DNA from: Prosthecobacter sp.
GTDB taxonomy: Bacteria > Verrucomicrobiota > Verrucomicrobiia > Verrucomicrobiales > Verrucomicrobiaceae
NCBI GenBank assembly: GCA_030833205.1
Contig: JAURHS010000008.1
Coordinates: 1-50,020 of the forward strand
Direction of reading: 5' to 3'
Length of the DNA: 50,020 nt
This document shows positions 288 through 12,796 of this stretch, one piece after another. The notes below the pieces were generated by a model. It was not told the origin of the DNA and ran no database searches. It saw nothing but the letters and a program-made list of their open reading frames with translations. Position numbers and translations under genes: made by a program. Each line of letters opens with the position of its first letter. The first letter of the stretch is position 1.

Positions 288-3200
288 CTACTCGATTTGG
301 ATGGGTCGGATCAGTTGGATGCCGCCTGTGTTGGATTTGCCTTGGATGGGGCTGTTGGCTCGGCTGAACTGGCCAGCGCCAATGTTGGTGTCCAGGGGCG
401 ATGCGGGCAGACGCAGCACTCCCTTGAAGGTGTTGGTAAACAGGCCCTGAGTCACGCTGCCGCTGAAAATGCCGGTGGCTGGCGCATAGGTCAGTCTCCA
501 GGTCAGGCCAATGTCGTCGAGGGGAGCAAAGCGGTTGGTGGCGCTGTCGAGTTTGATGGCGCGGTCAAAAAGATCTGCGCTCGCGCCGCTGGTGAGGTTG
601 TGATGCAAAAAGACCAGGGGGTTGGGATTCTCTGGTGAGATGCCCATGAGCAACCTCAGCGGCAGTGTTGTCAGATTTGGCGTCAGCCATGGGTCAATGG
701 AGAGCGCACAGTGCAGCGGGCCGTAGCCGTTGACATAGCTGCTGTCGGCGGCGTTTGCGCTCTTGCGCAGGGTCACTGTGCTGCGCGCGAGACGACGGCC
801 CTGAAGTGGCGGCAGGGCCGCAAGATTGGGCGAGAGCGTCATGGAGAACTGCCCTGCAAGTGACGAGTCCACCCGCTTGTGGTGCTGGACAAAGAGCCGG
901 TAGCCCGGGTCGGCGCTGATGTCGGCGGCCAGCGAAGCGGTGAAGCTGCTGCCGTCGCCCAAAGTGCCGGAGATTTTCATCCCGCCGTTGCGATCGACGC
1001 TGGCGTTGCCGTAACCGAAGCCGCCAGGGGCATCGTTGCCTGAGGGAGTGCTGCCGTCTGAGGCCATGACACCGGGCTCCAACAGCAGGGTGTGCTGGCC
1101 GGCGTGGGTGATGGTCCCTGCATTGGCCTCAAGCAGTCGCAAGCCGCTGAAGGCATGTTCCGCTGCTCCCTTGGCGATCACGCCCTCAATCCGTCCGCTG
1201 CGGCGCAGAGTCAGAGACTTGAGGTGCAGGGCACCTGGTGTGGGCGCACTGGCTGTCGCAGAGACGAAATCGCCGCTGCCGTCCAACTCAAGCCCACCGG
1301 CAAAGGAGAGGGCTGTTGTGCTGGGATTGAGGTGGCTGATCAGGCTGGCGGTGAAGGAGAGTCTCAGCGCGGGGGCTGCGAGGCTGCCTGTGTTCTTGAT
1401 GCTGGTGCAGGCAATCTTGATCAGGCCCAGGGGATGATGCGGCTCAGCGGAATCGAAAATCAGCGCCTCGTGGTTGCTGCCAAAACCCTCAACGGTGAGC
1501 GTTGCTGGCACGGCGATGGGCAGGTAGAAACGGCTGACCCCCTTGCTCAGTGTGATGGGGTAATTGCCGGCTGGTGAAAGCGGATTGGCTTTGCAGCTCG
1601 CCACTGGTGCCGTGGTCCATTGCGCGTCTGCCATCTCGACCTGATTTCCCAGGGCATTGTGCAAGGCGTAGTCGAAGGGTGGGTTGTCTTTCATGACCCT
1701 GCGCTGCTTGGGGTTGGCGACCACCCAGAGCGGCGCCTGCTTGATCACCAGACTGCCTTTCAGGTTGGGTTTGCCAGCGTCAGTTCCTCCCAGAGTGGCA
1801 ATGACCGGATAGGTCCCCGGCTCACTGACAGAGGGCATTGGTGCTCCGCCGGCGCTGTAAGTCAGGGTGGCATTGCCGCCCACAGAAAGCCCAACCACCT
1901 CCGCACTCTTGCTGCTGCCGTCGTAGAGGTGCGTCAGATTGATCAGCGTGGGCTTGGTCGCGGCGATCACATTGACCTTGAGAAAAACATACTTCGCGGA
2001 ATTGAAGCGGATGTCCCCCGCCTGAGAAGCTCGAAGGGTGACCAGACCGGCAGCAGCGCCAGGAGTCAGCAGGTAGCCGTCGGCGGCGTTGCCGCTCAGG
2101 TTGGCTGCGGTTCCTTCGCTGCGCTCCAACAAAACGGGCAGGCCGGCGCTGGAGTAGGCATGGATCTTGACTGGACTCTGGCCGATGTAGAGGGTGCTGG
2201 GGCCAACGATGCTCAGTGTTTGCGTCAGTGGCGCCTGATTGTGGCATTGGCCGCTGAGATGAAAAAGATACTGAGGCGTAGCGCTGTCATCGGTGCTCAA
2301 TACCCAATCCTGACGACGGAAGATCCCGGGATAAAGCGCGGGCTTGAACTCAAGAGTCACGGTGGCGCTGGCCGCCGGATCAAGGCTGGCTGGCAGGCCG
2401 CTGATGAGGAACTCCGACGAGGTGGACAGGTTGCTCAGTGCGATGGCGGTGCTGCCCTGATTGGTCAGGGTCAGAGTGCGCAGCAGGCTTTGCCCAGGCG
2501 AGGTGCCGCCAAAATACAACGAGTCCTCCAGGGATAGCATTTGATTGTCCTCGTCCCTGATCACCAGGTTGGGCTCGACGACCACAAGGCTGAAATCGCG
2601 GCTTGCGGTCTGGCTGGCGGCGTCCGTGATCTGCACGGTGAAGTTGTAGGTGTTCGCCGCTGCCGAGACGGTTCCGCTGATCAGGCCAGTGTTGGGGTTG
2701 AGACTGAGCCCCGCTGGCAGGCTGCTGCCCGGCGCAGTGGCATAGCCGTAAGGCGCGCTGCCGCCTGCCGCTTCGAGGTCGGCGGAGAAGGCGTGACCGC
2801 GCAGGGTGCTGCCCAAGTCTGCTGCGGTGCTCAGGCCAAGCACAGAAAGGGTGAAGGTCTTGCTGGCCATCAGCGGCGGTGTGGTGCTGGTCTCCACATT
2901 GACCACGAAGCTGTAGTTGCCAGGCTGGGTGGGCGTGCCGCTGAGCAAGCCAGAGCTGGAATTCAGGCTCAGGCCCTGTGGCAACGAACTGCCCGCGCCC
3001 AGATCCCAGTAGAGGCTGCCTGAGGTTCCCGAGGTCTGCAGGGTTTGGGAGTAAGGCTGATCGCCTTTGGCCAAGGGCAGGGCTGCGTTGGTGCTGATGA
3101 TCGGGTTGATGGTCAAACTGACGGTCTGGTTGGCAGTGGCGGAGGCATTGTCAGTGACGCGTACCGTGAAGCTGTAGATTCCCGCCGATGAGGGAGTGCC

Positions 3201-4124
3201 GTTGAGAGCCCCTGATGAATTCAAGGTCAGTCCAGAGGGCAAAACGCCTGCTGGTTGGCTCCAAGAATAGGGGGTGGTGCCGCCACTGGCACTGAAACCG
3301 TACGAATAGGCTGCGTTCACGGTGCCAGCCGTTGCCGTGGCCGCCGAGGTGATGCTCAGTGGTGGTGCCTGCACCGTGACCGTGGCAATATCCGAATCCG
3401 TGATGAACTCAATGGTCTCATAGGTGTAGATGACCTTCACCCGGTAGCGTTTGTTGGTTGAGAGGGTTGGCGTGGTGTAAGTGGAAGAGGTCGCAGTGGC
3501 GATCAGGTTCTCGGAGTTGTTGGGCTGGACCTCATACCATCTGTAACTCACGGCGCCTGCAGCGCTGGCCGTGACGCTCAGTCTTGCGGTCTCGCCCGAT
3601 GCGATGCTTTGCGACTGAGGCTGGGCACTGATGCTGGGCTTTGCGGCGGCAATCACCGTGAACGACCCGTTGGTGGAATAGCGCGCGCCGTCCCTCGCCG
3701 TGATGGTCACTGCCGTTTTTGTCTGGGCAGTGGCGGTTCCACTGAGGGTGGCCGTTTGCCAGTTGCCTGTCAGGGTCAGCCCCGACACCGAGGGGCTCAT
3801 GGTCCATGTCGGAGCGCCGTGAGAAGTGCCTGAGATGGCGAGACCCGCACTGGTGGAACTGCCCACCACGAATACGAGCTTACTGTCCTGCCGCGGTGCG
3901 GTCTGCACCACAGAGGTGGCCCCAGCCACACTATCGTAGGCGCCCAGCCCAACGGCGGTGGCCACCACAGCCTTTGCCGCCTCAAGGGCGCCGGCAGAGG
4001 CAGCGAGGTTGAGTTCGGGCACCAGTGCCTGTGCCGTGGCTCCGCCGCGCTGGAAGAGCATAAGCAGGGAGGTGGCGCGCTTGAGTTGGCGTTTGAGGCG
4101 GGTCAGCAGCGGTTGTGCGTTCAT
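288..4124 (-). CDS. Giant secreted or surface protein with Ig-like/He_PIG repeats and a choice-of-anchor-D-like domain
   Basis: From the ATG at 4124 the product has 1278 residues. An in-frame TTG at 4208 would overlap the upstream DUF4266 gene, so ATG is preferred. Residues 1-75 carry an N-terminus I recall from verrucomicrobial exoproteins (LLMLFQR, then VGLGAYDSVAGAT). Next come Ig/cadherin-like segments (about 80-160 and 163-253), three He_PIG putative-Ig repeats (about 257-340, 345-430, 435-515; each with LPxGLxLN and SGTxxxxGxYxFTV), a choice-of-anchor-D-like domain (about 519-626), an MBG-like repeat, and a C-terminal region with GFGYGNASV-type strands. No sortase motif, PEP-CTERM or other anchor is evident. 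The role is probably adhesion or cell-surface structure (inference). It lies 40 bases after the DUF4266 gene on the same strand, so it may be co-transcribed with the flavinylation cassette. Confidence 0.75.
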   Translation of the reverse strand: MNAQPLLTRLKRQLKRATSLLMLFQRGGATAQALVPELNLAASAGALEAAKAVVATAVGLGAYDSVAGATSVVQTAPRQDSKLVFVVGSSTSAGLAISGTSHGAPTWTMSPSVSGLTLTGNWQTATLSGTATAQTKTAVTITARDGARYSTNGSFTVIAAAKPSISAQPQSQSIASGETARLSVTASAAGAVSYRWYEVQPNNSENLIATATSSTYTTPTLSTNKRYRVKVIYTYETIEFITDSDIATVTVQAPPLSITSAATATAGTVNAAYSYGFSASGGTTPYSWSQPAGVLPSGLTLNSSGALNGTPSSAGIYSFTVRVTDNASATANQTVSLTINPIISTNAALPLAKGDQPYSQTLQTSGTSGSLYWDLGAGSSLPQGLSLNSSSGLLSGTPTQPGNYSFVVNVETSTTPPLMASKTFTLSVLGLSTAADLGSTLRGHAFSADLEAAGGSAPYGYATAPGSSLPAGLSLNPNTGLISGTVSAAANTYNFTVQITDAASQTASRDFSLVVVEPNLVIRDEDNQMLSLEDSLYFGGTSPGQSLLRTLTLTNQGSTAIALSNLSTSSEFLISGLPASLDPAASATVTLEFKPALYPGIFRRQDWVLSTDDSATPQYLFHLSGQCHNQAPLTQTLSIVGPSTLYIGQSPVKIHAYSSAGLPVLLERSEGTAANLSGNAADGYLLTPGAAAGLVTLRASQAGDIRFNSAKYVFLKVNVIAATKPTLINLTHLYDGSSKSAEVVGLSVGGNATLTYSAGGAPMPSVSEPGTYPVIATLGGTDAGKPNLKGSLVIKQAPLWVVANPKQRRVMKDNPPFDYALHNALGNQVEMADAQWTTAPVASCKANPLSPAGNYPITLSKGVSRFYLPIAVPATLTVEGFGSNHEALIFDSAEPHHPLGLIKIACTSIKNTGSLAAPALRLSFTASLISHLNPSTTALSFAGGLELDGSGDFVSATASAPTPGALHLKSLTLRRSGRIEGVIAKGAAEHAFSGLRLLEANAGTITHAGQHTLLLEPGVMASDGSTPSGNDAPGGFGYGNASVDRNGGMKISGTLGDGSSFTASLAADISADPGYRLFVQHHKRVDSSLAGQFSMTLSPNLAALPPLQGRRLARSTVTLRKSANAADSSYVNGYGPLHCALSIDPWLTPNLTTLPLRLLMGISPENPNPLVFLHHNLTSGASADLFDRAIKLDSATNRFAPLDDIGLTWRLTYAPATGIFSGSVTQGLFTNTFKGVLRLPASPLDTNIGAGQFSRANSPIQGKSNTGGIQLIRPIQIE

Positions 4125-4164: not shown

Positions 4165-4395
4165 TTAGTTGCAGCCGCAGCCGCCTCCACCCACGCCGCC
4201 ACCGCCAAAGGTGGACTCGCGTGAGAAATAGCTGTGCTGCAGCATGGCCAGCAGCAGGGGCTCGCGATCTGGCAGCATCAGGCGATTGGCCAGGTGGCCG
4301 CGCTGGTATTGCTTGACGCGCACCAGCTTGGGGTTGCTGCAGCTGGAGAGCATCAGCACCGCAGAGGCAATGACGAAGACAAGGGCGGTTTTCAT
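4165..4395 (-). CDS. DUF4266-type small lipoprotein with Gly-rich CGCN C-terminus
   Basis: This 76-residue protein starts with a lipoprotein signal peptide: MKT, a hydrophobic core, then the lipobox LSSC with the lipidated Cys at residue 19. The mature part contains a Lys/Arg-rich segment (KQYQRGHLANRLM), a helix with HSYFSRES, and a C-terminal tail of glycines ending GGGGCGCN. This layout matches the DUF4266 family as I know it, which recurs beside ApbE and DUF3570 genes. The ATG overlaps the apbE stop by 4 bases (ATGA), indicating translational coupling. Family function is unknown; a role in an envelope redox process linked to flavin transfer is inference. The Cys-x-Cys at the end could bind metal or be modified. 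Confidence 0.8.
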   Translation of the reverse strand: MKTALVFVIASAVLMLSSCSNPKLVRVKQYQRGHLANRLMLPDREPLLLAMLQHSYFSRESTFGGGGVGGGGCGCN

Positions 4396-5369
4396 GCGGC
4401 GGCTTGAATCAGGTGTTGTTCGAATCGGGGAGTGAAATGCAGGCCGCTGTCGTCCTGCAGGCAGGCCTCGATGCCGGGTGTGGCTCGGGCGAAGTGCAGG
4501 CCCTCATCGCGGCCCAGCACCACCAAGGCAGTGGAGACAATGCCGGCCAGTAGGGCATTGGCAGCCAGCACAGTGACGGCATGCAGTGGCTTGGCGCAGG
4601 GCCAGCCGCTGCGCGGGTCGAGGATGTGGCCGTAGCGCTTGCCCTCGCATTCAAAGAAGCGGGTGTAGTTGCCCGAGGCACAAACGGCAATGCCACTGGC
4701 GGCGACACCCGCAACGCAGCGTTGGGGATCGCGGCCGTCCTGCAGGCCCACATGCCAGAAGGGTTGTCTGCCATTGCCGCCCAGGGCCATGATGTCGCGC
4801 CCCAGATCCACAAGGCAATCGCTGAGGCCGTGGCGCTTGGCGATTGCTGTCACCTGATCCACGGCGTACTCCTTGCCAAAGCCGCCAAAGTCCAATCCCA
4901 TGCCGGCCTTGGGTAAAAAGACAGCCCCGGGACGGCGCTTGATGAGGCTCCAATCGCAAAGGCTTTTGGCCTTCTCAATCTCTGCGGCGCTCGGCAGTTG
5001 CGCGTGCTGGCGTTGCCAGTCCCAGAGCAGGATCAGGGGCAGGGCAGTGGCATCCAAAATACCGCGGGTAAACTCGTGCATGGCGGCGGCGCGGTCGAGC
5101 ATGGCTTCCATCGCACGGTCCACCGCCACCCAGTCGCGGCCGGCCGCAGCGTTGATTTGGCTCAACATGGAGCTGGGACGAAAGCGTGAGAACTGCGCTT
5201 CAAACTGCTCCAGCCAGCCCAGAGCCTCGTTTAGAAACTGCAGGCTATTTTGCTCACTCAGCCCGCGCCATTGCAGGCTGCACTGCGTGCCCAAGGCCTT
5301 GAACTCCACACGGCAGACTCCGTTGGCATCGGGCTGGATGCGCAGGGGGGATGCTGTCGTTGCGCTCAT
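4392..5369 (-). CDS. apbE: FAD:protein FMN transferase (ApbE family), divergent metal site
   Basis: This 325-residue protein belongs to the family that transfers FMN from FAD to a Thr or Ser of extracytosolic proteins. Visible motifs are FSRFRPSSMLSQIN (60-73), LDATALPLILLWDW (105-118), GLDFGGFGKEYAVD (158-171), LVDLGRDIMALGG (186-198), ASGNYTRFFE (231-240) and GHILDPRSGWP (247-257). The usual ADALST motif, whose Asp and Thr bind Mg2+, reads AGIVST here: Gly276 replaces the Asp and Thr280 is kept. No signal peptide or lipobox is seen at the N-terminus (MSATTASPLRIQ), although ApbE is normally exported. The gene starts 3 bases after the DUF3570 stop and overlaps the DUF4266 start. The family call is secure; catalytic competence and location are open. 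Confidence 0.9.
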   Translation of the reverse strand: MSATTASPLRIQPDANGVCRVEFKALGTQCSLQWRGLSEQNSLQFLNEALGWLEQFEAQFSRFRPSSMLSQINAAAGRDWVAVDRAMEAMLDRAAAMHEFTRGILDATALPLILLWDWQRQHAQLPSAAEIEKAKSLCDWSLIKRRPGAVFLPKAGMGLDFGGFGKEYAVDQVTAIAKRHGLSDCLVDLGRDIMALGGNGRQPFWHVGLQDGRDPQRCVAGVAASGIAVCASGNYTRFFECEGKRYGHILDPRSGWPCAKPLHAVTVLAANALLAGIVSTALVVLGRDEGLHFARATPGIEACLQDDSGLHFTPRFEQHLIQAAA

Positions 5370-5372
5370 GGC

Positions 5373-6551
5373 TCAGAAGATGAGGTTGAGCCCGAGCGTC
5401 CACATGGTGGCGGTGGCATAGGCTGCGGCTGGAGCGGGATGCGAGCCGATGCCGTTCATGTCGTACTGCTCGAAGGCCAGTGAGAGCACGGCTCGCTTGC
5501 CCAGGTAGGCGCGGGCCTTGAGGCCCAGACTGAGAGTTGCCATGGAAGAAAGCCGGTAGTCGGCGCTGTAGACATCACCGGATCCGTCGGGGCTGATCCT
5601 GGGGTTTTCGATGCCCGCCTCATTGAGGCTGCGGTAGTAGAAGTCTGCGGCGGTTTGGGTGTAGAAACGAGCGTAGGGAGTAAGATCAAAGTGTTGGCCC
5701 AGGCCCTGCCGCCATTCCAGTTGGGTGGTCTGTGAGTAGACTCCGTTGCTATCTCCACCCAGGCGCAGGCTGAGGTCGGCAGCGCCGTTGAGCGAAGCAA
5801 CAAAGCGCGTCAACTGGGCTTGAATGACCGCCCTTGTCTTGTCGCGCGGGCGGTTTTCGCGGTAGAGCAGATCGACCGGAAAGGTGAATGCTCCTCCGTT
5901 GCCATCTGGGATGCTCATGAGGCGTCGCAGTTCAATCAGCTTGTATTGCTCGCTGAGAAATCCACGCGCGGCTCCGAGGGTCAAGTTGAGGCTGAGGATG
6001 GTGTCCCGGTCCAGCAGTTGTGAAAGGCCTGCAAACAGATCCAAGGTCTGTTTGCGCTGATAGCCCACGGTGCGCAGCAGCACATCGTCGTGCAGGAAAT
6101 TTAAACCGTACGACAGAGTGGTGTTTTCTTGGTTGAAGAGGGAGCGCCCACTCAGGGCGAGCCCCCGAGAGAGGTAGTCGCTTTCTCGACTCTGCGAGAG
6201 CTCCAGTTCGACACTGTGGTCGCCGATGCGCTGATTCAGGGCTGCGAGCACGCCGTTGCGCACATCGGTGATGTCAACCAGAAAGGGTTGGCGGCTACCC
6301 GGATTGGAGCCAAGAGGCGAGCTGCCACTGATCGCATCCCGCAGCACCTGATAGCGGAATGTCGTGTCCGCGTTGAGCTTCATCTCTGTGCGCAGGTACC
6401 AGGACTCGACGAACATGCGGCCGGCTGCCTCGTCATAGGTCTGGTAGCTGCTGTCGAAGCGAAAGCGCTCTGTCTCCCCTTGAAGGATGGCCGGCACACA
6501 GACCGGGGTAAGCCAGAGCAGGCTGGAGGGACGAAGGCTTTTCTGACTCAC
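5373..6551 (-). CDS. DUF3570-type outer-membrane beta-barrel protein
   Basis: The 392-residue product starts at a GTG at 6551 and has a plausible N-terminal signal peptide (hydrophobic LLWLTPVCVPAIL at about 11-23). The rest is rich in alternating hydrophobic and polar strands with many Tyr, Arg and Asp residues, and it ends in the aromatic residue Phe (LGLNLIF), a hallmark of outer-membrane barrels. Segments such as SSYQTYDEAAGRMFVESW near the N-terminus and FYTQTAADFYY near the C-terminus match DUF3570 as I know it. It is the first gene of the DUF3570-ApbE-DUF4266 cassette. Its function is not established; a barrel working with the flavinylation genes in the envelope is inference. The 119 bases upstream (6552-6670) separate it from the FAD oxidoreductase gene and hold no clear promoter. 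Confidence 0.78.
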   Translation of the reverse strand: MSQKSLRPSSLLWLTPVCVPAILQGETERFRFDSSYQTYDEAAGRMFVESWYLRTEMKLNADTTFRYQVLRDAISGSSPLGSNPGSRQPFLVDITDVRNGVLAALNQRIGDHSVELELSQSRESDYLSRGLALSGRSLFNQENTTLSYGLNFLHDDVLLRTVGYQRKQTLDLFAGLSQLLDRDTILSLNLTLGAARGFLSEQYKLIELRRLMSIPDGNGGAFTFPVDLLYRENRPRDKTRAVIQAQLTRFVASLNGAADLSLRLGGDSNGVYSQTTQLEWRQGLGQHFDLTPYARFYTQTAADFYYRSLNEAGIENPRISPDGSGDVYSADYRLSSMATLSLGLKARAYLGKRAVLSLAFEQYDMNGIGSHPAPAAAYATATMWTLGLNLIF

Positions 6552-6670: not shown

Positions 6671-8761
6671 TCAATCCAGGGGTAGCCATTGGGCCGCATC
6701 GGCCACCACGAATCCATTGGCCCCGGCATTGCTGAGCCGAACCTCCCCTCTTGCCTCGAATCGGAATTCGCCCAGATCCAATCCCTCGGGCCCGGGCTTG
6801 ATGCGTTGATTGACGCGCAGCCGGCCTTCGCCTCCGGCATGCCTGATGACGACCTCGGCATTGCTGGCGCGGTTGGCATTGGCCGGGAAGTGCAGCAGGA
6901 CACGGTAGCGCCCGGCCTTGGGCAGTGTGGCGGAAAAGCTCAGGCTCTTGGCGGGACTGGAGCTTTTGCCATCGTGGGCATAGCCCTCGCCGATGAAGTC
7001 TGAGGAGGCTTGGCTGCGGCTCCACTCGCCGCCCTCGCTCACGGCCTGCAGGTCATCGACCACGATGCCCTTGAGACTGGAGGCGGCGCGGCCCTTGTCG
7101 TGGGCGCGGCCCTCGTAGGCAAGTACCTGCCCGTCCTTGAGCAGGACGGCCTTGAGTTGTTCATAGGGCAGGTCCTGCAGGGCCAGGCCCTTGTCCATGG
7201 CCAGCACGGCGGCGGTGGCGGCGCTTTGGCCCAGGATCATGAAAACGGGCTCCATCCGAATGCTGCCGTAGGCGATGTGGCTGGCAGAGACGGCCACCGG
7301 CACGCTGAGATTGGTGACTTGCTTGCGCTTGGGCAGAATGCTGCCGTAGGCAATCGCGTAGGGGCCGCCTGTACTCACGCCGATGTCGCCCTCGTTTTGC
7401 ACGCTGCCCTCAGGGGTGATGTAGCGTTGCACATTGTGACTATCAATGGTGTAGCTGCCCATGCCGATGGAGTCCGGAGTTGGCTTGCGTTTGCGCAGCT
7501 CATTTTCGGTCATCACAAAACTGCCGATCATGCGTCTGGCCTCGCGGATGTAGAGCTGATGCGGCCAATGGCCGTTGTCCTTGAATTCATCCTTGGGCAG
7601 ACCCCATTGCTGCACCTCGTTGCGAAGGGCAGGCGGCACGCGCGGGTCATTGGCCACAAACCAGAGCAGGCCCTGCTGATAGCGACGGTGTTCGGCGATG
7701 ATCTCGCGGCGCCGCTCATAGGAGGCCTCCGGGTAGCCATCGTTGCCGCCGATGAAGTCGAAGCTGAAGGGGCCGTGGTTGTTGGTGTCGGTTTTGAGAT
7801 TGGGAATGGGGTCAAACTTTTCAAAGAACTCGTCCCAGCCGGCCTGAAGCACGCGCAGCAGCAGTTCGTAGCGTGCGGCATTGTATCCCTCGGGCTTGGG
7901 GAAGGGGATGCGATTGGATGCCGCATTGGTGAAGCAGGTGCGGAAGCAGTAGGCTTGAAGGCGCTTGTCGGCCTCGCCGACGCGGCCTGGGTCGGCACTG
8001 CTGATCTCCGGCAGCACCCCGCTTTTTGGATCACCGGGCAGGCGGTAGGGTGAGATCGGTTGCTTGAGCACTCCGAAGTGATGGCGGTGGTGCAGGATGC
8101 CGGTTTGCACGCCGTTGTGCTCCTCGCCGTAGGTGGCGTTGGATTCGCGGCCCACATGATAACTGACACCGGCGGCAGCCATCAAGTCGCCTTCATAGGT
8201 GGCATCAATGAACATGCTGCCCTCGTAGCGCTGACCCGAAAGGGTGGTGATGCCCAGGATGCGTCCATCCTTCTGGCTGACGCCGTCTTGGCGATTGAGC
8301 CATTCATCCCGGTGCAGCTCGATGCCCTGTTCCCGCACCCAATTCTCGAACACCTGCTCGGCGGCGTGCGGCTCAAAGATCCACATGGTGCGTTGCTCGC
8401 CGTCAATGGCTGCGGTGCCCTGTCCCTTGTTGCCGTAGGATTCGCGGCTTTGTTGGCGCCAAGCCTCGGGTTGCTGGTAGTGCTTCCAGATGCGGTGGTA
8501 AAATTCTCGTGACAGGCCGCCAATGACGGCCTTGTTGCCGGTGTCCGTGAAGCCAAGGCCGCCGCTGCTTAGCCCGCCGAGGTGGCGATCTGGAGAGACG
8601 ACGATCACGCTTTTGCCCATGCGCTTAGCCTGCACGGCGGCAGTGACAGCCGCGCTGGTGCCGCCGTAGATGATCAAATCGGCTCGCTTGGCCGAAGGTT
8701 GCTCGCCGAAGGCCTGAAGGCAAAGGCAACACAGGAAAAGGGCAGTTTGGCGATTGCGCAT
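6671..8761 (-). CDS. Secreted FAD-dependent oxidoreductase with golvesin-like C-terminal domain
   Basis: From ATG 8761 the protein has 696 residues; an upstream in-frame start at 8782 adds seven residues ahead of the signal peptide. The signal peptide is MRNRQTALFLCCLCLQAFG. The FAD-binding Rossmann motif follows (ADLIIYGGTSAAVTAAVQAK), then the HLGGLSSGGLGFTD segment typical of the FAD_oxidored family found in secreted catabolic loci. A matching FAD contact region near residues 510-535 reads GQSAATAAVLAMDKG. The last ~130 residues (EWSRSQASSDFIG onward) form a golvesin/xanthan-lyase-like beta domain, probably carbohydrate-binding. The substrate is unknown; related proteins lie in polysaccharide-use loci of Planctomycetes and Verrucomicrobiota. 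No partner enzymes are adjacent. Confidence 0.85.
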   Translation of the reverse strand: MRNRQTALFLCCLCLQAFGEQPSAKRADLIIYGGTSAAVTAAVQAKRMGKSVIVVSPDRHLGGLSSGGLGFTDTGNKAVIGGLSREFYHRIWKHYQQPEAWRQQSRESYGNKGQGTAAIDGEQRTMWIFEPHAAEQVFENWVREQGIELHRDEWLNRQDGVSQKDGRILGITTLSGQRYEGSMFIDATYEGDLMAAAGVSYHVGRESNATYGEEHNGVQTGILHHRHHFGVLKQPISPYRLPGDPKSGVLPEISSADPGRVGEADKRLQAYCFRTCFTNAASNRIPFPKPEGYNAARYELLLRVLQAGWDEFFEKFDPIPNLKTDTNNHGPFSFDFIGGNDGYPEASYERRREIIAEHRRYQQGLLWFVANDPRVPPALRNEVQQWGLPKDEFKDNGHWPHQLYIREARRMIGSFVMTENELRKRKPTPDSIGMGSYTIDSHNVQRYITPEGSVQNEGDIGVSTGGPYAIAYGSILPKRKQVTNLSVPVAVSASHIAYGSIRMEPVFMILGQSAATAAVLAMDKGLALQDLPYEQLKAVLLKDGQVLAYEGRAHDKGRAASSLKGIVVDDLQAVSEGGEWSRSQASSDFIGEGYAHDGKSSSPAKSLSFSATLPKAGRYRVLLHFPANANRASNAEVVIRHAGGEGRLRVNQRIKPGPEGLDLGEFRFEARGEVRLSNAGANGFVVADAAQWLPLD

Positions 8762-8792
8762 GAGGGGAGGACGGCCATTCAACGGGTTGGCG

Positions 8793-11040: not shown

Positions 11041-11116
11041 GCGCGCCGCTCTATGCTATGCAGGGGCAGGGCTCCTCGGTTTGCCAAGGGGCCTTGCCTC
11101 AGTCTCGCAACTCCGC

Positions 11117-12796
11117 ATGCCCAGTCCTCGGTTCAAGCCTTCTCTCGCCTCGCTGTGGCGGCTGGGGCTGCTCGTGCTTGTGTTGGGTTGGCTGGGGCAG
11201 GAGGTGCGCCGCCGCGATGTGCTGGCTCAGGGGCGGGAATTGACTCCGGAGCGCCTGCGCGATTTTTTGCCCCAGGCCCAGCGCCTTGCAGCGCCTGGCG
11301 ACGAGGCCCAGCGCTGGCAGGTGCTCGACGAGCATGGGCAACTGCTGGGTTACGCGGCGAGCGCCGCGCCCTTGAGCGATCGGATCATCGGCTACAGCGG
11401 GCCCTCGCGTTGTCTGCTGGTCTGGGATCGCCGCGGGGCCTTGCTTGGGGTGCGCCTGCTGCACAGCCACGACACGCCCGAGCATGTGGCTGAGGTGGTG
11501 GCCGATCGTGGATTTTTTGCGCAGTTCAAGGGCTGGGACGCGGCGGCCAATCCGCAGGGGCCGCAGGTGGTCAGCGGCGCGACGCTGACCAGTGCCGCCA
11601 TCGCCCAGGGCGTGTTGGCGCGGCTGGGCACGGCAGCGGGGTCTTCGCTGAAATTCCCCGAGCCCATCGGCCTGGCGGAGGTGCAGGCCCTGCGACCGGC
11701 GGCGCGGCGTCTGCGCCCCAGCACAACGCACAGCGCAGCCCTTGAGGTGCTCGATCAACAAGGCGCGCTGATCGCGCTGGCCATGCGCAGCGCACCGGCT
11801 GCCGATGCGGTGATTGGCTACAAGGGCCCCAGTGATTGCCTGCTGCTGCTCGATGCTCAAGGCCGCGAATTGCAGCAGGTGGCCCTGCGCCGCAGCTACG
11901 ACTCCAAGCGCTATGTGGGTTATGTCACCGGCGACCGCGACTTCTTAAAATCCCTGGCCGGCCGCAGTTTGCAGCAGTGGGCGAGTTTGGATTACAAGGC
12001 CGAGAAGATCGAGGGTGTTTCCGGGGCCACGGAGACCAGTTGGGCGCTGGCTGAGGGTATCAAGCGCCGTGCCGTTCAGGCGCTGGCCTCGCCGCCTGCG
12101 ACAGGTCTTGGGCTGCGCTGGCGCTGGCAGGACTGGGGGCATTTGCTGCTGATGGCCTCGGCGGCCTTGATGGCCCTGACCTCCCTGCGCGGGCGTCCCA
12201 TGCTGCGCCACCTGCACCATGCCTTGTTGGTGATTTATGGCGGTCTGGTCAGTGGCGAGTTGTTGAGTCAGGGCCTTCTCGGGGGCTGGGCCTCGCATGG
12301 TTTGCCCTGGTCCTCAGCGCCGGGGCTGGTGCTGTTGTTGGCGGTGGCTCTGTTGGCTCCGGTCTTCACGCCGGTGCAGCTTTACTGCCATCATCTCTGT
12401 CCGCACGGAGCCTTGCAGCAATGGCTGCTGCGGCGTCTGCCCTGGCAGTGGCAACTGCCGCCAAGGCTGCAACGCGCCCTGGAGCGCCTGCCCGGCCTGC
12501 TGCTTGGGTTGATGGCTCTGAGCCTGCTCCTGGGCTGGGGCTGGAACCTCAATGCCTTTGAGCCCTTCGATGCCTTTGTGCTGCGCTCTGCCGCGCCGGC
12601 AGCGTTGACTCTGGCCTTGCTGGGACTGTTGTGGAGTCTGGTTCAGCCCATGGCCTACTGCCGATTTGGTTGCCCCACGGGGGCCCTGTTGCGTTGGCTG
12701 CGTGCCGGCTCGGCTGGGGGGCGTCTGCCTTGGCGCGATGTGCTTGTGGCACTGTTGTTGGCATTGGCCTGGGGCCTGCGTCAGGCCTTGGGTTGA
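11117..12796 (+). CDS. NosR-like membrane flavoprotein with two FMN-binding domains and CxxxCP membrane domain
   Basis: From ATG 11117 (a TTG at 11081 is less likely) the protein has 559 residues. A signal anchor at about 10-28 leads to two tandem FMN-binding (pfam04205-type) domains, each with a GYxGPSxCLL strand (92-101, 234-243) and the ApbE acceptor motif SGAT: Thr156 in VVSGATLTS and Thr305 in GVSGATETS. Residues about 340-557 form a multi-helix membrane domain with CHHLCPHGAL (Cys424, Cys428) and CRFGCPTGAL (Cys515, Cys519), as in NosR/polyferredoxin-type proteins. The C-terminal CxxCxxCxxxCP ferredoxin modules of NosR are absent. It probably moves electrons between the membrane and an extracytosolic acceptor through covalent FMN (inference). 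The apbE gene 6 kb away could supply the FMN. Confidence 0.82.
   Translation: MPSPRFKPSLASLWRLGLLVLVLGWLGQEVRRRDVLAQGRELTPERLRDFLPQAQRLAAPGDEAQRWQVLDEHGQLLGYAASAAPLSDRIIGYSGPSRCLLVWDRRGALLGVRLLHSHDTPEHVAEVVADRGFFAQFKGWDAAANPQGPQVVSGATLTSAAIAQGVLARLGTAAGSSLKFPEPIGLAEVQALRPAARRLRPSTTHSAALEVLDQQGALIALAMRSAPAADAVIGYKGPSDCLLLLDAQGRELQQVALRRSYDSKRYVGYVTGDRDFLKSLAGRSLQQWASLDYKAEKIEGVSGATETSWALAEGIKRRAVQALASPPATGLGLRWRWQDWGHLLLMASAALMALTSLRGRPMLRHLHHALLVIYGGLVSGELLSQGLLGGWASHGLPWSSAPGLVLLLAVALLAPVFTPVQLYCHHLCPHGALQQWLLRRLPWQWQLPPRLQRALERLPGLLLGLMALSLLLGWGWNLNAFEPFDAFVLRSAAPAALTLALLGLLWSLVQPMAYCRFGCPTGALLRWLRAGSAGGRLPWRDVLVALLLALAWGLRQALG

Follow-up and report, generated by a model that had tools for sequence, protein, structure and literature searches.

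A variant DUF3570-ApbE-DUF4266 flavinylation cassette of Verrucomicrobiota with an Ig-repeat protein as candidate additional substrate

Genes for ApbE, the FAD:protein FMN transferase, recur next to DUF3570 and DUF4266 genes, which raises the question of which proteins the ApbE of such a locus modifies. We addressed it in a window of 50,020 nucleotides from Prosthecobacter sp., which is a whole contig of a draft genome that is 88% complete. The original prediction had described three tightly packed genes with a 3-base gap and an ATGA overlap; we recovered the same coordinates, and each product matched a Pfam family with an E-value far beyond chance. All on the minus strand, they encode a DUF3570 outer-membrane beta-barrel of 392 aa (5373-6551; PF12094, E 6e-52), an ApbE of 325 aa (4392-5369; PF02424, E 1.6e-67, 228 bits against a cut-off of 25.6) and a DUF4266 lipoprotein of 76 aa (4165-4395; PF14086, E 8.2e-17). 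The gap between DUF3570 and apbE spans positions 5370-5372, and the stop codon of apbE overlaps the ATG of the DUF4266 gene as ATGA. That these genes form a recurring cassette had also been predicted, and the association is already in print: Meheust 2021 (PMC8238504) describes clusters that combine ApbE with DUF3570, DUF4266 and a thioredoxin-like protein, and often with DsbD as well, and here the DUF3570, ApbE and DUF4266 genes are likewise adjacent. The relatives carrying cassette genes, whose loci were fetched by a DUF4266 scan of genome contigs, are Verrucomicrobiota of the Opitutaceae/Pedosphaera kind; a search of viral contigs retrieved no relatives of the cassette. Directly upstream, also on the minus strand, positions 6671-8782 encode a FAD-dependent oxidoreductase with a Golvesin C-terminal domain.

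The assignment of DUF3570 to the outer membrane held up well, since the AlphaFold model is all-beta with a mean pLDDT of 93.9 and its Foldseek matches are outer-membrane barrels. The original prediction also stated that neither small protein has an SGAT acceptor motif. Literal SGAT is indeed absent from both, but the barrel carries the sequence D72-A-I-S-G-S-S78-P (motif at 6318-6338, minus strand), aligned with DAISGATP in its relatives. The consensus of this motif in about 70 relatives is D-x-I-[SATV]-G-A-[ST]-P, and the window's deviation from the standard, Ser in place of Ala, is also present in a locus of the same genus (DAITGSS in L043) and in L040 and L065. In co-expression experiments, the DUF3570 of Chlorobium (C. 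luteolum) was flavinylated by its cognate ApbE at two [S/T]GA[S/T] sites (Meheust 2021, PMC8238504). A pair of such motifs is lacking in the window barrel, where we found the single aligned site DAISGSS. Because experiment has shown that ApbE modifies a DUF3570, the barrel is expected to be the first-candidate substrate here too, by analogy, with Ser78 as the predicted FMN site, and no exotic site is needed. This bears on the earlier proposal that either the lipoprotein or the barrel takes up FMN at a non-standard site. The proposal draws on the lack of literal SGAT in both proteins, whereas the barrel has its aligned, near-standard site and nothing resembling an acceptor motif is present in the tail of DUF4266; we regard it as the least probable of the readings considered here. 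In the AlphaFold model, if strand parity is counted back from a periplasmic C-terminus, the motif would lie where an outward strand reaches the outer side, so that the barrel flavin may be placed at the cell surface.

A flavoprotein partner encoded elsewhere was the other option originally put forward. An extra partner does appear likely, although the best candidate is not distant: it is the next gene downstream (288-4124, minus strand), which encodes an Ig/He_PIG-repeat protein (He_PIG, E 7.9e-40) with a probable start at ATG 4124, 40 bases past the DUF4266 stop. An examination of DUF4266 neighbourhoods for a conserved extra partner, as had been suggested, identified this fourth gene: a homologous Ig-type N-terminus adjoins the cassette in most of the Verrucomicrobiota loci fetched with DUF4266, although the other partner sought, a thioredoxin-like gene, is missing from the window operon. 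The shared N-terminal module has some 60 residues and matched no family model in Pfam or NCBIfam. It combines a helix bearing LLQxxPxxR with a further helix and then the motif Gxx[DHN]x[VLM][SATV]GA[ST], which in the window reads D64-S-V-A-G-A-T70 (3915-3935, minus strand). No consistent motif-bearing neighbour of another kind was found in the DUF4266 loci without the Ig gene, nor in the gammaproteobacterial loci.

The last residue of this motif is Thr in 55 and Ser in 22 of 77 aligned copies, with no exception. It is preceded by Ala in 75 copies and, before that, by Gly in 69; Asp, His or Asn occupies position -6 in 74/77, and Gly position -9, again in 74/77. These frequencies do not depend on the motif having been used as bait: a profile built without it retrieved 65 copies of the module, all with the motif (65/65), and so did a second set also found without the motif (22/22). 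The second set includes the four copies checked among those located apart from the operon (4/4). The minimal ApbE motif D-x-x-[S/T]-G-A-[S/T] has seven residues and is sufficient for flavinylation; changing its Asp to Ala has a minor effect, while loss of the acceptor abolishes transfer (review PMC12052999). The window motif, DSVAGAT, fits this pattern except at the fourth position, which is Ala and not Ser or Thr. Several relatives of the Ig protein have DAVSGAT or DAVSGAS, and in others the fourth position may be Ala or Val, a drift like that among S, A and V in the barrel motif.

The distribution of the module was evaluated in 388 genomes of the phylum. DUF4266 occurs in 42 of them and the Ig module in 25, all of which are DUF4266-positive (25/42 against 0/346 of the DUF4266-negative genomes; Fisher 1.7e-28). 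When counted by genus, the module is found in 17 of 30 cassette-bearing genera and in none of 168 others (Fisher 7.8e-17), although shared ancestry inflates both statistics. None of the cassette-free genomes from the same genus, family and order, which include G139, G071 and G302 among many, has the module. A covariation between the barrel and Ig motifs (Fisher 2e-8) was discarded as independent evidence, because it vanishes in within-cluster permutation at at least 50% identity and is therefore an effect between lineages.

These data bear on a different explanation of the Ig motif, in which it closes a long signal peptide and is cut by signal peptidase I between [SATV]-G-A and T/S; the barrel alone would then be flavinylated, and the Ig protein would be a surface partner or an adhesin. 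The motif does follow directly after a hydrophobic helix, and its positions -3 (S/A/V/T) and -1 (Ala in nearly all copies) obey the -3/-1 rule. Cleavage, however, requires neither the Ser/Thr at +1 nor the Gly at -2, the Asp/His/Asn at -6 or the Gly at -9. Furthermore, ordinary signal peptides are not restricted to genomes with one cassette, and the S/A/V drift is matched in the barrel motif, which is not a cleavage site. Around the motif, the AlphaFold model of the Ig N-terminus has too low a confidence (pLDDT of about 50) to separate an acceptor from a cleavage site. Because these four constraints go beyond what cleavage needs, we favour, with some reserve, the reading of the motif as an acceptor. 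A cleavage site is the main rival reading, if an unlikely one, and the Ig protein probably also receives flavin.

The cassette varies among the loci examined. For instance, one of them (L178, G452:C4) has a short version consisting of the barrel, apbE and the Ig protein, with neither thioredoxin nor DUF4266 detected. Some motif-bearing cassettes lack an adjoining apbE (L036, L069, L099 and L104), a point against the overall reading given below; two of these, L036 and L104, are one contig present in two collections, and contain tandem barrel-thioredoxin-DUF4266-Ig cassettes with no apbE between.

Another candidate substrate is encoded in the window itself, at 11081-12796 on the plus strand: a membrane protein of the NosR/NapH kind, in which an FMN_bind domain is accompanied by a second SGAT-bearing repeat and a 4Fe-4S motif. 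If the cassette ApbE served this protein, the barrel and the Ig protein would be unmodified. No other FMN_bind protein was found in the draft genome, and this one has SGAT sites; nevertheless, its proximity to the cassette is not conserved in the same genus, where the FMN_bind gene and the cassette are on different contigs in two genomes, and the window genome has three other, canonical ApbEs. We thus consider it very unlikely that this protein is the target of the cassette enzyme.

The cassette ApbE belongs to a separate branch of the family. Only one open codon precedes its ATG, and a signal peptide is absent from the ApbE of some 75 cassette loci, as judged from reading frame and hydropathy. 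The catalytic Ser233 and His249 are present and, together with Lys167 and Thr281, are kept in the ApbE alignment. Nevertheless, the Asp that binds Mg in canonical enzymes (D301 of FmnB, where it contacts both Mg ions, and D285 of V. cholerae ApbE) is replaced by Gly277 (codon at 4539-4541, minus strand), and the Gly that follows the conserved Lys in canonical ApbEs is replaced by Glu168 (4866-4868, minus strand). Among 125 aligned ApbEs from Verrucomicrobiota and Gammaproteobacteria with both positions present, the swap is perfect, with 110 Glu/Gly, 15 Gly/Asp and no mixed case. Included in the Gly/Asp set are the three further ApbEs that this genome encodes and those ApbEs of divergent cassettes that have a signal peptide; ApbEs of this canonical class mostly have an N-terminal hydrophobic segment.

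Loss of Mg-binding residues greatly reduces or abolishes the activity of FmnB, and the branch could be inactive if Glu168 fails to compensate. Conservation of the compensating change across the alignment argues instead that the enzyme works and that its metal ligand has moved. From its place four residues after the Mg1-binding Ala of FmnB, we infer that Glu168 is near the metal. It might also be proposed that the chemistry itself has changed, with a different metal, nucleotide or adduct, and that the targets carry a group other than FMN, given that no member of the branch retains the Asp which in FmnB binds the two Mg ions. This appears improbable in view of the retained active-site Ser, His, Lys and Thr, the position of the compensating Glu and the flavinylation of the DUF3570 of another cassette (Meheust 2021).

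Enzyme class and barrel type are also associated in gammaproteobacterial cassettes, in which barrels with one motif occur with the Glu/Gly enzyme and barrels with tandem motifs with canonical signal-peptide ApbEs. Six loci (L231, L233, L237, L243, L245 and L246) contain a tandem-motif DUF3570 (D-x-[IV]-S-[SG]-A-S-I-D-V-V-T-S...) beside signal-peptide ApbEs of the Gly/Asp class, and this combination is a second kind of DUF3570 system. Plasmid pTHAF191d_b of Vibrio sp. THAF191d (L201), a secondary replicon of 1.8 Mb that is unannotated in the collection, bears a one-motif DUF3570 cassette with a Glu/Gly ApbE, and in gammaproteobacterial locus L241 a thioredoxin-DUF4266-barrel block, duplicated in tandem, precedes a gene of DsbD size and a Glu/Gly ApbE.

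The remaining product, DUF4266, has a lipobox-like LSSC and a C-terminal end GGGGVGGGGCGCN. Its Gly-rich tail ends in CGCN, and the terminal CXC (...GGGGCGCN), a feature of DUF4266 remarked on in Meheust 2021 (PMC8238504), is invariant in relatives. The operon lacks the thioredoxin-like gene of the described clusters, and a search of the genome, at 88% completeness, gave no orthologue; the partner is present in both same-genus genomes with the cassette (G119 and G124). DsbD, which is a typical but not constant feature, is not co-localised with the cassette, and a single DsbD_TM gene lies on another contig (C19).

Taken together, our results suggest that the operon could be a four-part variant flavinylation module of the outer membrane. 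In this module, Glu168 would stand in for the missing Mg-binding Asp, and ApbE would move FMN from FAD onto Ser78 of the barrel and Thr70 of the Ig protein. Loading would most likely precede export and act on precursors that are still unfolded, because a linear motif of seven residues is enough and a cytosolic location is predicted for the enzyme. The barrel would then fold with FMN at its outer rim, and DUF4266, with a flexible Gly-rich tail ending in CXC, would be the likely thiol carrier reducing the flavin, in line with Meheust 2021; the thioredoxin that may feed DUF4266 in other cassettes is missing here, and electrons would presumably flow in this direction. Of its elements, gene content, conservation of the motifs, co-occurrence, the residue swap in ApbE and the fold of the barrel are computed results, and FMN transfer by a cognate ApbE is an experimental result for another DUF3570. 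We give this reading as a whole an even chance of being correct. A broader proposal, for which the chances are somewhat below even, is that a separate transferase branch, with a carboxylate moved between loops, loads FMN in the cytosol on unfolded outer-membrane and Ig-repeat proteins, and that the latter constitute a new flavinylated surface class defined by its N-terminal module. The purpose of the widespread DUF3570 systems could be approached in this way, as a further substrate, strictly linked to the cassette and part of a surface protein with many Ig repeats, would provide a handle on the role of the flavin. Likewise, the combination of a cytosolic-type ApbE with exported targets poses the question of whether flavinylation can precede export, and the fixed Glu/Gly versus Gly/Asp swap offers a clean way to ask whether a metal ligand can relocate in an enzyme whose Mg site had been regarded as indispensable.

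Among known systems, the canonical ApbE/FmnB enzymes (PDB 4ifu, 4xdt and 7esa) share with the window ApbE the sequence family and the catalytic Ser and His, Lys and Thr, but the window enzyme has Gly for the Mg-binding Asp and Glu for the neighbouring Gly, and is not a lipoprotein. The cytosolic ApbE of Klebsiella pneumoniae also has no signal peptide, although it modifies a soluble fumarate reductase of the cytosol (PMC12052999), whereas the candidate substrates in the window are exported. Literature searches found no paper on DUF4266 besides Meheust 2021, and none that joins flavinylation to Ig-like proteins, in a comparison that covers the article text of Meheust 2021. Within the sources searched, the acceptor-like site of the barrel, the Ig-repeat fourth gene and the residue swap in an ApbE without signal peptide are new. 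The clusters described in Meheust 2021 (PMC8238504) are the closest system: like the window, they have adjacent DUF3570, ApbE and DUF4266 with a C-terminal CXC, and relatives of the window cassette also share with them the thioredoxin and sometimes DsbD. Unlike these clusters, the window has no adjoining thioredoxin or DsbD, its barrel has a single, variant acceptor site where they have two [S/T]GA[S/T] sites, its ApbE lacks a signal peptide and has a swapped Mg-site carboxylate, and an additional Ig-repeat gene brings its own acceptor-like motif. The window cassette is, in all, a variant of a described flavinylation system.
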